Below are positions 1,407-6,125 of a stretch of DNA of 38,288 nucleotides, piece by piece. The position numbers and the translations under genes are program-made. The notes below the pieces were generated by a model. That model saw nothing but the letters and a program-made list of their open reading frames with translations, ran no database searches and had not been told where the DNA came from. The DNA is taken from contig PEXU01000057.1 of the NCBI GenBank assembly GCA_002774635.1, positions 1 through 38,288 of the forward strand, in the 5' to 3' direction. The stretch comes from Candidatus Kerfeldbacteria bacterium CG08_land_8_20_14_0_20_40_16 (GTDB lineage Bacteria; Patescibacteriota; Patescibacteriia; UM-FILTER-42-10). Every line of letters starts with the position of its first letter. Positions within the stretch are counted from its first letter, which is position 1.

Positions 1407-2871
1407 TAAATCAAAAATAAGGGTGCGAATTGCTCCTTCCCCAACCGGTCCGTTGCACGTGGGAACGGCACGGTCGGCATTGTATAATTACCTTTTTGCC
1501 AGGCAAAACGGCGGCGCTTTTGTTCTGCGCATTGAAGATACCGATTTGGAGCGTTCTGACGAAAAATATACCAGGGAGGTTATAGAAGGGTTACATTGGC
1601 TGGGAATAGAATGGGATGAAGGACCTACCTTAGCTAATAAAGAAAAAGGGAAATACGGCCCCTATAAGCAGTCGGAGAGAACGGATATTTACCGGAAATA
1701 TATTAAAAAATTGATCGATGAAGACAAGGTATATCCTTGCTATTGCACACCCGAGAAATTGAAGCAAGAAAGGGTGGCCGCGGCCAAAAGGGGAGAGGCC
1801 CCAAAATATAGCGGCAAGTGCCGAAATTTATCTGGTGCCGATCGAAAAAAACTGGAATCAGAAGGAAAAGGCAGTATTTTACGGTTTAAGACCCCTGCTC
1901 AAGTGATAACCTTCACTGACGAAATTAGAGGCGAAGTATCCTTTGCAACGGATCTGATCGGAGATTTCTCGATCGCCCGTGACGAACAAACCCCCCTGTA
2001 TAATCTAGCGGTCGTAATCGATGATTATACAATGAAAATATCGCATGTAATCAGAGGGGAGGATCACCTCTCTAACACTCCCAAACAAATATTGCTTCAA
2101 GTAGCGCTTGGTTTTCCAAAACCGTATTACGCCCATCTTCCCTTAATTCTCAACGAGGACCGATCCAAGCTCTCGAAAAGAATGAATAAGGTATCAATTA
2201 TTGATTATCGGCAGGATGGTTATTTGCCCGAGGCGATGCTTAATTTTTTTGTGCTTTTAGGCTGGAATCCTAAAACGGAAAAAGAGATATTTACCAAAGA
2301 AGAATTAATTAAACAGTTTAGTCTCAAGAATATTCATCGAGGAGGGGCGGTTTTTACCAGAAAGCGACTGGATTGGATGAACGGATATTATATTAGAAAA
2401 TTAAATCCTGATGATTTATATAAATCAACGCTCTCATTTTTAGAAAAAGCTAAAATTCCTGTTGCCGACAAGGAATACACTAAGCAGGCGATTGCTCTGG
2501 AGCAGGAGAGAATTAAGAATCTTAAGGAACTTCCTGATGCGGTTAGCTTCTTTTTTCTAAAGGAACTGGAATACGATCCGAAGCTTTTGCTTTGGAAGAA
2601 AACCACAGGGGAGGAAATTCATAAAAATCTGGAAACAGTGGAACAATTTTTCCAGAAATTATCCGAAAAAAAATTTACCGCAGAAAAAATAGAGAAGGGG
2701 TTAAAAAACATCATTGCTACCAGAAAACTGGATACTGGTTCTATTCTCTGGCCACTCCGGGTGGCATTAACTGGCCGAGAAGCCTCGCCCGGACCGTTTG
2801 AGGTGGCAGCGGTGCTGGGAAAGGAAAAGGTATTGGTACGTCTTAAAAAGGCAATTTTGCTTATTAGTTGA
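1399..2871 (+). CDS. gltX: glutamyl-tRNA synthetase (class I)
   Basis: RIAPSPTGPLHVGTARSALYN, KLSKR motif, full length 490 aa. Confidence 0.97.
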   Translation: MASKSKIRVRIAPSPTGPLHVGTARSALYNYLFARQNGGAFVLRIEDTDLERSDEKYTREVIEGLHWLGIEWDEGPTLANKEKGKYGPYKQSERTDIYRKYIKKLIDEDKVYPCYCTPEKLKQERVAAAKRGEAPKYSGKCRNLSGADRKKLESEGKGSILRFKTPAQVITFTDEIRGEVSFATDLIGDFSIARDEQTPLYNLAVVIDDYTMKISHVIRGEDHLSNTPKQILLQVALGFPKPYYAHLPLILNEDRSKLSKRMNKVSIIDYRQDGYLPEAMLNFFVLLGWNPKTEKEIFTKEELIKQFSLKNIHRGGAVFTRKRLDWMNGYYIRKLNPDDLYKSTLSFLEKAKIPVADKEYTKQAIALEQERIKNLKELPDAVSFFFLKELEYDPKLLLWKKTTGEEIHKNLETVEQFFQKLSEKKFTAEKIEKGLKNIIATRKLDTGSILWPLRVALTGREASPGPFEVAAVLGKEKVLVRLKKAILLIS

Positions 2872-2879
2872 TTGATAAT

Positions 2880-2908
2880 TTGCTAAAAACTAAAATATGC
2901 GATATAAT
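2880..2908 (+). promoter_or_regulatory. sigma70-type promoter TTGCTA-17-TATAAT driving the M23 peptidase
   Basis: -35 at 2880-2885, -10 at 2903-2908, 17-nt spacer; lies between the gltX stop and the internal ATG at 2934. Confidence 0.75.
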
Positions 2909-2933
2909 TATTTTGGTTGAATGGGTTAAAAAT

Positions 2934-4238
2934 ATGTTATTTTTGTTCAAAATAAAAATAAATCCTAAAAAATTCCTTTACCTTATGGGATTGGTAGTTG
3001 TTGCCAATCTTTTATTTTTTCCTCGCCAGGCTTTGTTGGTCCAAAATTCGGAGGAGAGGAGTGATCAACAAATCAGCAATCAAGATGAACAGTTGACCAA
3101 CGATATTAAACAGCAGATTGATGAAAAGGGAAAAAAGATTGAAGAGTTGCAGCAACAGATTGACCAGTATAATCAAAATATTGCTACCAAGCAAAAAGAA
3201 CAGGCAAGCATTGAAAATGAAATATCGATGTTCGATGACCGAATTGCTAAAAAGAATCTGAATATTGAAGCGCAGGAGAACCTAATCGAAAAATTAACGT
3301 TGGAAATAACTGATTTAGAAACAAAAATATCCGATAAAGAAGATGAAATTCTGTCAGAAAAAGATGATCTTTCGGACATGATTAGAAAAATGTATGAATA
3401 TGATCAAAAGACCTATCTAGAAGTGACGATCGGAAATAATAATTTTTCGGAATACTTTACTCAGCTAAAATACATCGAGCAACTGGAAAAGAGCACTAAG
3501 GATGCCCTAGATCATCTCAAGACTCTCAAAAGCACTCTAGAAGGACAAAAAGAGAATCTAGATGGTAAGAAAAAGGAAGTTGAGGCGGAAAAAACAAAAT
3601 TAGAAGGGGAGCGTAGCGAATTAGAGGGAGAAAAAACATACAAGGATCAATTATTGTTTGATACTAAACTGGACGAAGCGAAATTTCAGCAATTGATTGA
3701 GCAAGTGAGGCAGGAAGAAGTCCTGACTAATACCGAGATTAGCAATCTAACGCAGGAGATGCAGCAGCGGCTTTCCAATGAAGATTTTGTTGGGCTAGGG
3801 GGCGATATTATTCAAGGAAACGCCACGCTTACTTGGCCGATCAATCCTAAATATGGAATCTCCTGTGGCTTTCACTGTGCTGATTATCCGTTTAAAAAAT
3901 GGTTTGAGCATTCTGGAATGGATACTAGGACTCCGCAGGGGACGCCGATAGGAGCAGCCGCTTCTGGCTACGTGGTGATTGCCAAAGACGGCGGAATGGG
4001 GTATAGCTACATATTAATTGAGCACGGGGATGGATTAGCATCAATATATGGTCATGTTAGCAGAATAGATGTTGCTCCTGAGCAGTACGTACGAACTGGT
4101 GAAATAATTGGCTTAAGTGGCGGGATGCCCGGTTTTCCGGGAACAGGAAAATTCAGTACCGGTCCGCATCTTCACTTTGAGGTGCGGGTAAATGGTATTC
4201 CGGATGATCCTTTAAAATATTTGCCGGCAATCCTTTAA
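2934..4238 (+). CDS. murein hydrolase activator, EnvC-like coiled coil + M23 (LytM) peptidase domain; start moved to 2934
   Basis: N-terminal TM/signal (KKFLYLMGLVVVANLLFF), long Q/E/K coiled coil, C-terminal HSGMDTRTPQGTPIGAAASG...GHVSR...GPHLHFEVRVNG. Track start at 2868 lies upstream of the promoter, so ATG 2934 (MLFLFKIK) is preferred. Confidence 0.88.
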   Translation: MLFLFKIKINPKKFLYLMGLVVVANLLFFPRQALLVQNSEERSDQQISNQDEQLTNDIKQQIDEKGKKIEELQQQIDQYNQNIATKQKEQASIENEISMFDDRIAKKNLNIEAQENLIEKLTLEITDLETKISDKEDEILSEKDDLSDMIRKMYEYDQKTYLEVTIGNNNFSEYFTQLKYIEQLEKSTKDALDHLKTLKSTLEGQKENLDGKKKEVEAEKTKLEGERSELEGEKTYKDQLLFDTKLDEAKFQQLIEQVRQEEVLTNTEISNLTQEMQQRLSNEDFVGLGGDIIQGNATLTWPINPKYGISCGFHCADYPFKKWFEHSGMDTRTPQGTPIGAAASGYVVIAKDGGMGYSYILIEHGDGLASIYGHVSRIDVAPEQYVRTGEIIGLSGGMPGFPGTGKFSTGPHLHFEVRVNGIPDDPLKYLPAIL

Positions 4239-4284: not shown

Positions 4285-4339
4285 ATTTAATATGTATTAA
4301 AGTGTCGCACAAGGTTACTTTTGTGACGCCTAGGTCAGC

Positions 4340-5035
4340 CTACTTCAAATAGGGGTCTTTTAATGGTATGTATTTAAGTATTTCCTTCTCGAATTCACTT
4401 AATAAAACTAAATCTACATTTCTATTGCGATTTGTGGTTATAGATTTATCTGTCCTTTTAACATTAACTTGAGTTATTTCTGGATTAAAAATACAAAGGT
4501 ATATTTTGAACTGAAAATCCTTATATGTACGAAATTTTGCGCATACATTGTTAGTGAATCGCCCCTGTTCCTTATCTGGAAAAAAGACATCAACAGCATA
4601 TTTCCCCTTCGAATGATAAATTAGAAAATCAACTTTTAATGCATAATCATTTAGTACTACCCTAGCTTGATTATGAACAAAAGGTTCGTGGTAATAATTT
4701 GCTAATATCTTATATACATTTTGCTCTGCCTCAAAACCTTGTTTATGAAGAAGGATTGCTTTATTGCTTCTAGTTTCCCCTTTTGAGTAATTTGTTTCTG
4801 CTAGACCGATTTCACTTCGAATATTTGTTATTCCACCAAAATTTCTTTCCAAAGTCTTTACATTTGGCAAGTAATCACAATTTTTTAAATCTGCACCTAC
4901 CGGCCATCTTTCATTTTCCTTATAAAAGTGTCTGAATCCTGATAAGATATTATCCAATGTCCAAGAAACATGAAATTTACTTTTACTCTTTGGAATGACT
5001 AGTAGTCCTTTCGATTGTTTGTAGAATTTGGGCAT
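4340..5035 (-). CDS. putative endonuclease-like protein with N-terminal homing-endonuclease-associated-like repeat and C-terminal restriction-nuclease-like domain
   Basis: N-terminal ILSGFRHFYKENERWPVGADLKNCDYLPNVKTLERNFGGITNIRSEIGL resembles HNH-associated repeat; C-terminal HNQARVVLNDYALKVDFLIYHSKGKYAVDVFFPDKEQ...CAKFRTY. Confidence 0.55.
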   Translation of the reverse strand: MPKFYKQSKGLLVIPKSKSKFHVSWTLDNILSGFRHFYKENERWPVGADLKNCDYLPNVKTLERNFGGITNIRSEIGLAETNYSKGETRSNKAILLHKQGFEAEQNVYKILANYYHEPFVHNQARVVLNDYALKVDFLIYHSKGKYAVDVFFPDKEQGRFTNNVCAKFRTYKDFQFKIYLCIFNPEITQVNVKRTDKSITTNRNRNVDLVLLSEFEKEILKYIPLKDPYLK

Positions 5036-5057: not shown

Positions 5058-6125
5058 TTAGATTAATTCTTTGAGGAATATCTTTTCTCCGAATCGCAAA
5101 TCTATGTAATCTATATTGCTATTTGATTCTTTGTTGACTGCTCGATTGAGCAAAAATATTTTTAGTCTTTCCAGTTGGGCGGAAAGATCACTGACGGTGG
5201 TGAAAAAGGCTTGCCAGTTTTCTTGCGTCTTAATGATTATGTCCTGGGTTAAAGGAACAATATCGCATTTCTCCTCCGCGGTAACCGAAGTATTAACATT
5301 CTGGTTTAAATTAGCATTCTTTGAGCTATTTACCGAAGAACTATTTTGATTAATATTGAGATTGGTATTTACTTTAGTGTTGCTGTTTGTCGGTGGAACA
5401 CCTATTTCTGATGATACTGGTTCTGTCTTTTTGGGACAGTTCACTTCGGGAATTAGAAACCGATCAATATTGGTATTAGTTTTTTTACTGAAGTTTTCAT
5501 TCAAATCAAAAATTGACTCAATGACCTTTTGGGGCAGAATCTTATCCTTTAATTTAACTTTTCTTTCGTTTAAATCTTCTACTATTGGAAAATTTGGTTT
5601 TGCTTCTTCAGGAGATATTATGTGAGTCACTATTCCCTCTAAATCTAAATAATAGTAATGACCATCATTAATAAAGGTTAAATTAGGGATTTTCTCCTTC
5701 AGGGTAACGACAATCTTATCGGGCAGTCTCTTTTTGATCTTGACCTGCTCTAGCGCAAAACTATCCCAAAGAGCTTGTTCGGAAGCTTTAGTGTTATAAA
5801 CAAACAAGTTGCTTTGTGGCAGGATAATAAGCCTTCTTGCAACGAAGACCTTATTTATTTCAGAGCTTATTTGGTCATAAGTCAGTTCCTGATTCCCCTG
5901 AATTTCAACTTCCTTGATTCTAAAAAAATTGGAATAAAAGAAAAAATAGATTACTCCGAGGATGATTAATCCAAGGATTAGTCGCCTTGGGTTTTTTATG
6001 TGTCGCAAAATAAAACCCAGCTGTTTCCTTTTGAAATAAGGATTTTCATAGACCGGTTTGTTTACTATTTTGATTTCGTGTTTCCGAAAACCCCTAATGT
6101 TTTTTGTTTTTTTTCTCCCAAACAT
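5058..6125 (-). CDS. ftsQ: FtsQ-like cell division protein (single TM + POTRA)
   Basis: TM LGLIILGVIYFFFYSNFF followed by POTRA RIKEVEIQGNQELTYDQISSEI and IKKRLPDKIVVTLKEKIP. Confidence 0.85.
   Translation of the reverse strand: MFGRKKTKNIRGFRKHEIKIVNKPVYENPYFKRKQLGFILRHIKNPRRLILGLIILGVIYFFFYSNFFRIKEVEIQGNQELTYDQISSEINKVFVARRLIILPQSNLFVYNTKASEQALWDSFALEQVKIKKRLPDKIVVTLKEKIPNLTFINDGHYYYLDLEGIVTHIISPEEAKPNFPIVEDLNERKVKLKDKILPQKVIESIFDLNENFSKKTNTNIDRFLIPEVNCPKKTEPVSSEIGVPPTNSNTKVNTNLNINQNSSSVNSSKNANLNQNVNTSVTAEEKCDIVPLTQDIIIKTQENWQAFFTTVSDLSAQLERLKIFLLNRAVNKESNSNIDYIDLRFGEKIFLKELI

Follow-up and report, generated by a model that had tools for sequence, protein, structure and literature searches.

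The locus raises two questions: what kind of protein is encoded by the solitary ORF between an M23 peptidase gene and ftsQ, and why does the ORF lie there? The window, i.e. the whole stretch of 38,288 nucleotides that was analysed (contig PEXU01000057.1 of Candidatus Kerfeldbacteria bacterium CG08_land_8_20_14_0_20_40_16), shows the following arrangement around the ORF.

2868..4238, plus strand: gene for an EnvC-like M23 peptidase with a coiled coil (Pfam PF01551, E 3e-24), conserved neighbour of dif on one side
4302..4329, minus strand: putative dif site, GCGTCACAAAA-GTAACC-TTGTGCGACAC, a 28-bp near-palindrome of 11-6-11 layout (from profile, class pattern and GC skew)
4340..5035, minus strand: gene for a 231-aa protein with a homing-type repeat and a predicted PD-(D/E)XK-type nuclease domain (from ORF, relatives and alignment)
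5058..6125, minus strand: ftsQ (Pfam POTRA_1 FtsQ-type, E 2.6e-7), conserved neighbour of dif on the other side

Genomic setting of the gene

The plus-strand side of the putative dif site carries thpR, a WecG-type glycosyltransferase gene, gltX and the M23 peptidase gene. The minus-strand side comprises ftsQ, ddl, alr, serS and all genes on to the end of the window (names of neighbours without a Pfam match were read off their sequences). The nuclease gene has ATG as its start codon and is present in a single copy in the 1.13-Mb host genome. With a GC content of 31% (GC3 24%) it is AT-rich relative to its neighbours (35-42%; GC3 32-41%), and this low GC content was counted in favour of a homing-type gene. 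Homologues in other Patescibacteria, with identities from 53-54% down to about 20%, keep the same landmark residues. The ORF is therefore no chance reading frame but a member of a real protein family. The solitary gene described by the original prediction is thus real and contains the residues quoted for it; the strand (minus), which had not been given, is added here.

Architecture of the encoded protein

Alignment of the family and structure prediction divide the protein into two parts, encoded as follows.

4805..4963, minus strand: DNA-binding region resembling a homing-endonuclease-associated repeat, residues 25-77, with W25, P45, LP56-57 and G67 conserved (from PF18780 match and conservation)
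4376..4765, minus strand: predicted PD-(D/E)XK-type nuclease domain, residues 91-220, with an alpha-beta-beta-beta-alpha-beta core (from AlphaFold2 and Foldseek)
4724..4726, minus strand: codon of E104, first helix of the nuclease domain, invariant (from alignment)
4628..4630, minus strand: codon of D136, strand 2, PD position, invariant (from alignment)
4589..4591, minus strand: codon of D149, strand 3, D/E position, with VF in place of the usual xK, invariant (from alignment)
4535..4537, minus strand: codon of K167, helix after strand 3, candidate migrated lysine, invariant (from predicted model and alignment)

The N-terminal repeat had been proposed before and was supported at the level of the family: the Pfam model HNH_repeat (PF18780) was matched by six of 15 members at E-values up to 0.1 (best 9e-5), though not by the window protein, which gave no Pfam match even at E 10. 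Sequence searches of solved structures (PDB) gave no match for the family. Of the alignment columns, only seven show no variation among the 15 unbroken members (E104, L111, H121, D136, D149, K167 and Y171), and W25, P45, L56, P57, G67, G86 and R89 are nearly so.

AlphaFold2 modelled residues 88-231 alone with a pLDDT of 78 and a pTM of 0.71, and the full-length protein with values of 65 and 0.47, respectively; these models rest on three sequences, the window protein and two relatives. Foldseek matches were mostly PD-(D/E)XK enzymes (BstEII, PspGI, Card1, Can2, Bax1, Ecl18kI and EndoMS) at query TM scores of 0.5-0.56, with modest best E-values of 7.7e-5 and 6.7e-4. A predicted PD-(D/E)XK-type nuclease fold with a displaced lysine, and an active site composed of E104, D136, D149 and K167, are strongly supported. 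Because of the modest E-values and the three-sequence model, the fold is not regarded as proven. The original prediction had left the choice between a PD-(D/E)XK-like and a Vsr-like nuclease. Both model and structural matches favour the former; the EDxHD motif of Vsr-like homing endonucleases is absent from the family alignment. The two aspartates and the lysine singled out at that time are D136, D149 and K167, all invariant.

Identification of dif next to the gene

Each chromosome has one dif, a short site that serves to separate joined sister chromosomes (dimer resolution). The near-palindrome in the window lies 10 bp from the 3' end of the nuclease gene, is the single dif match in its genome, and shares CGCATAA and TATATT with the dif of E. 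coli. Similar 11-6-11 near-palindromes adjoin other copies of the nuclease gene. A profile made from nine gene-adjoining sites found the same site downstream of the M23 gene in many relatives that lack the nuclease gene. When the class pattern GTCGYATAAGATAYATTGTGCGAC was searched with up to three mismatches, 71 of 144 genomes of the window's class gave one site each, and one of these 71 sites reads on both strands; the reversed control of the pattern had no match in the 144 genomes. The consensus is GTGTCGYATAAGATATATTGTGCGACRC in the window's class and ATGTCGCATAAGATACATTGTGCGACAT in family f113 (L072-L101 near 1501-1524; L142-L163). The usual neighbour of dif is ftsQ, and in family f113 it is nifS.

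In the window's class, related sites have ftsQ on one side and the gltX-M23 operon on the other, at the point where both coding strand and GC skew switch. GC skew was +0.086 to the left and -0.045 to the right of the site, the left value being higher at 26 of 30 loci (Wilcoxon p 2e-7). Across the window's own site it changes from +0.137 to -0.078, and the coding strand from plus (left) to minus (right). Coding bias in G139 is 1.0 plus before the site and 0.19 plus after it; in G689 it flips near the site, with the change in GC skew about 100 kb further on.

The host genome encodes a single Xer-type tyrosine recombinase. One such enzyme suits a near-palindromic site, as in the single-recombinase system of Legionella LME-1 with its nearly palindromic dif (PMC9765430). 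Judged by its single occurrence per genome, the flip of strand and skew, the E. coli-like sequence and the single Xer-type recombinase, the 28-bp near-palindrome at 4302-4329 is dif. A function as terminator was ruled out because the site occurs once per genome, lacks a T-run and has a sequence that is conserved between classes.

Nearly all copies of the gene adjoin dif

In total, 19 copies of the gene were found in about 1,300 Patescibacteria genomes. Two are cut off by contig ends; among the 17 with both flanks, 16 lie 1-223 bp from dif (median 105). Ten copies had served to discover this link, and six loci found later provided a fresh test with the profile built beforehand. All six contained dif, with scores of 28-37 compared to a 95% limit of 11.5 and a maximum of 22.7 for random sequence. 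By random placement, a copy would fall within 300 bp of dif with odds near 0.0014. No full-length copy was clearly located elsewhere than at dif among the 19. The exception is G471, where no recognisable dif is nearby and a tyrosine recombinase gene adjoins the nuclease gene (L034 3986-4933); this copy was counted against homing at dif.

Neighbours on the sides of dif vary by class (ftsQ/M23, nifS, or a gene for a conjugation-type ATPase), and dif rather than any one gene is therefore the common factor. The convergent end of a housekeeping operon had originally been seen as an easy place for DNA to enter. The convergent setting holds; mere ease of entry does not describe a gene tied to dif among different neighbours. 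For the same reason, the M23 gene with its conserved 3' end was dropped as a homing target: dif proved to be the shared feature, and the copies in f113 and in the class of G689 lie beside other genes.

Gene and dif are either 1-35 bp or 175-223 bp apart, the second group having members in several classes, and distance, side and orientation relative to dif differ between subgroups. A classical homing gene sits at its own cut site, and the variable placement was therefore counted against homing at dif. A rule by which the gene would turn its 3' end towards dif at all loci is broken by L173-L176; such a pattern would in any case be accounted for by co-orientation with replication.

Sites without the gene show the locus in its empty state. 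In G001, a member of the same genus, the order M23 gene, dif, ftsQ is unchanged, and dif and the ftsQ stop codon are 46 bp apart. The corresponding gap in the window is 728 bp and is made up of the ORF plus 32 bp, the insert being one ORF with hardly any further sequence. In one genus of family f113 the gene is present in three of eight genomes, and gene-less members keep the nifS-dif arrangement.

Other lone genes were seen at dif in gene-less relatives, i.e. a NUDIX hydrolase gene (L158 2529-2984) and a gene for an unknown 136-aa protein (L162 2400-2863); dif may thus receive other cargo. In G728 (L143 2664-3714) dif is strongly diverged and the start of a tyrosine recombinase gene lies about 35 bp away from it, an arrangement resembling dif-linked single-recombinase systems.

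Distribution and decay of the family

Whole-genome searches revealed relatives in some parts of the Patescibacteria only. The gene was detected in four of 381 genomes of the window's class, in five of 49 genomes of the class of G577, and in seven of 393 genomes of the class of G689, six further matches that cover the repeat alone being left out. A phylum-wide sample had it in nine of 380 genomes including the window, not counting weaker matches to other proteins. Presence is thus patchy, at 1-10% of genomes depending on class, and in most classes about 97-99% of the sampled genomes lack the gene though dif is widespread. Its occurrence at this locus in all relatives, which the original prediction had named as an argument against itself, was not observed. 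Two hosts are recorded as Candidatus Kerfeldbacteria and Candidatus Uhrbacteria.

A fifth match in the window's class (G231) was a different protein, and matches in L005, L021-L026 and L029 as well as repeat-only HNH matches in genus g384 were other proteins or too weak. Separate proteins of 160-370 aa with at least one homing-type repeat are encoded at L179-L183 (genus g384, same class as G689).

Searches of viral contigs and of plasmids yielded no relative of the family, and phages gave a single weak match (E 0.4). Peptide-pattern scans with the single protein yielded no match in genome and viral contigs, a small-alignment search recovered two relatives that were both known already, and the PHROGs search with the window protein hit an unannotated family (E 0.0012). 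Restriction to Patescibacteria, as had been proposed, fits the collections searched, which covered sequences outside this group to a limited extent.

Four copies have decayed in place, all at dif. The nuclease domain is lost in G100 and the segment from strand 3 to helix B in G736, a frameshift separates the two halves in G631, and the copy in G595 is shredded; as these come from metagenome assemblies, single frameshifts could be errors, deletions less likely so.

Divergence of dif and inheritance of the gene

Sites adjoining the gene differ from the shared consensus by a mean of 4.0 mismatches compared to 2.3 in gene-less sites that were located by their flanking genes (p 0.0014); the genomes compared are related and hence not independent data points, and classes with different consensus sequences confound the comparison. 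Within single classes the effect is weak (p 0.05 and 0.08), as it is in the six later loci alone (p 0.07), and this weakness was counted against homing. Such divergence is expected of a resident dif that escapes cutting, and equally of a modified junction left by an integrative element exploiting Xer (IMEX).

At position 9 of dif, 13 of the 16 gene-bearing sites have A, and T prevails in the gene-less sites of the two classes read, a difference noticed post hoc. An extra half-dif site is located 450 bp beyond dif in G631 (L036 5711-5723). The idea that the changed arm of dif is the one proximal to the gene was not consistent with the sites.

To its counterparts in G221 and G100, which belong to other families, the window's gene has 54-56% identity across the alignable region (94 aa in G100); the M23 peptidase has 39-41% and GltX 39-44%. 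The higher identity of the gene suggests transfer in that set. Within one f113 genus the gene is 51-60% identical versus 62-72% for its neighbours. We regard horizontal spread of the gene as likely, not more; the gene tree does not reject a single clade for the window's class (p 0.18) and so leaves room for long vertical persistence, a point counted against homing.

Possible functions of the gene at dif

A rare gene that lies almost always beside dif suggests a selfish gene that has settled at an essential site. Our favoured explanation, to which we give about an even chance, is that of a free-standing, selfish homing-type endonuclease gene with dif or its edge as target. The N-terminal repeat would recognise a sequence in or beside dif, and the C-terminal PD-(D/E)XK domain (E104, D136, D149, K167) would cut chromosomes that lack the gene. 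Repair of the break from a gene-bearing chromosome via the conserved ftsQ, M23 or nifS flanks would then copy the gene beside dif. Base changes in a resident dif would save it from being cut, and once no further targets are left the gene would decay in place and finally be lost. The gene, its family, its place at dif, the empty sites, the patchy presence and the decayed copies are directly observed, whereas cutting at dif, homing and immunity of the resident dif are inferred. The PF18780 repeat, the patchy presence, the four decayed copies at dif and the diverged dif were all counted in favour of a homing type. Being small, intergenic, unique to each chromosome, conserved and needed by the host for chromosome separation, dif would be a good target for such an element. 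That the active-site residues stay intact even in distant members may also point to a function for the host and was counted against homing. On balance, a homing function of the nuclease gene, as considered from the outset, is plausible. The wider proposal that a phylum-wide selfish nuclease family homes on dif, cuts the dif of gene-less relatives and drives dif change is more tentative and falls somewhat short of an even chance.

It is unlikely, yet worth weighing, that the gene is a cassette moved by the host Xer recombinase, i.e. a small circle with a dif mimic that integrates at dif in the manner of IMEX elements or the dif modules of Acinetobacter, the nuclease being cargo (e.g. for defence). 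Integration of IMEX leaves two dif sites, one of them modified. Location at dif in nearly every case and alteration of dif at gene-bearing loci would agree with this mode of movement, as would the single recombinase and near-palindromic dif reminiscent of Legionella LME-1 (PMC9765430). In addition, a second half-site, TATTGTGCGACAC, is present at the gene start in G100 (L007 98-110; score 22.3 versus a random maximum of 17.7). However, a half-site directly flanking the gene was seen in G100 only, no second full dif flanks any copy scanned, and apart from its single ORF the insert carries no genes of an element.

We regard it as improbable that the nuclease guards dif, cutting incoming phages or plasmids that have a dif-like attachment site while the host's own dif is diverged or otherwise protected. 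A protein encoded beside dif would be well placed for co-evolution with it, and position, dif divergence and the conserved nuclease domain could all be read in this way. Against it, the searches gave no phage or plasmid that infects or inhabits these hosts and uses dif, matches to defence families amounted to one weak methyltransferase-type match, and the gene is very sparse and often decayed.

Slightly less probable still is an ordinary accessory gene whose proximity to dif is accounted for by an insertion-tolerant convergent terminus. The lone NUDIX, hypothetical and tyrosine recombinase genes beside dif (L158, L162 and L143) are what such a terminus would collect; 19 copies of one family with none of full length clearly elsewhere, the low odds per copy given above, and the lack of an inserted gene at most gene-less f113 dif loci argue otherwise. 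Finally, a host protein that takes part in resolving dimers or in processing the terminus, e.g. one that cuts Xer Holliday junctions at dif, would fit the position, the long-term conservation of active-site residues and a fold family that includes junction resolvases, but is very improbable for a gene that is missing from most sampled genomes although dif is widespread, that decays in place and that carries a homing-type sequence-recognition repeat.

Comparison with known systems

Phages and islands use dif through Xer. In the open-access literature searched we found neither a homing endonuclease or other nuclease gene paired with dif, nor a description of dif or its single Xer-type recombinase in Patescibacteria. 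Both are now identified for much of this group, and dif can serve as a marker of the replication terminus in genomes of uncultured Patescibacteria.

Like free-standing homing endonucleases such as the Seg and Mob genes of phage T4 (PMC2988022, PMC6083498), the gene is a solitary, intergenic nuclease ORF with a homing-type repeat, associated with neither intron nor intein, patchy in occurrence and decaying in place. Known representatives are mostly from phages and mostly of the GIY-YIG or HNH type, and none was found described at dif. A restriction-type nuclease fold, here in a candidate homing enzyme, is shared with the PD-(D/E)XK homing endonucleases of the I-Ssp6803I type; unlike these and the EDxHD/Vsr-like family (both listed in PMC6083498), the window family has its lysine in the helix after strand 3, lacks EDxHD and is not intron-borne.

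IMEX elements and dif modules, e.g. CTX phage, the gonococcal island and Legionella LME-1 (PMC9765430), likewise have dif as their chromosomal home and alter it on integration, comparable to the diverged dif at gene-bearing loci, but the nuclease locus consists of one ORF with no second dif in the loci scanned and no phage or island genes. Insertion sequences of the IS1202 family take up positions only a few bp away from dif or pdif (PMC10132070); they are 1.5-kb transposons with terminal inverted repeats, whereas the element in the window is a lone nuclease-type gene. The homing endonucleases of CPR rRNA insertions (PMC11270868) come from the same bacterial group but reside inside rRNA gene insertions and not beside dif. 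Homing nucleases that are free-standing, homing nucleases of the PD-(D/E)XK type and mobile elements that use dif are thus each known singly; as far as checked, what is new is their combination at dif, together with this variant of the active site.
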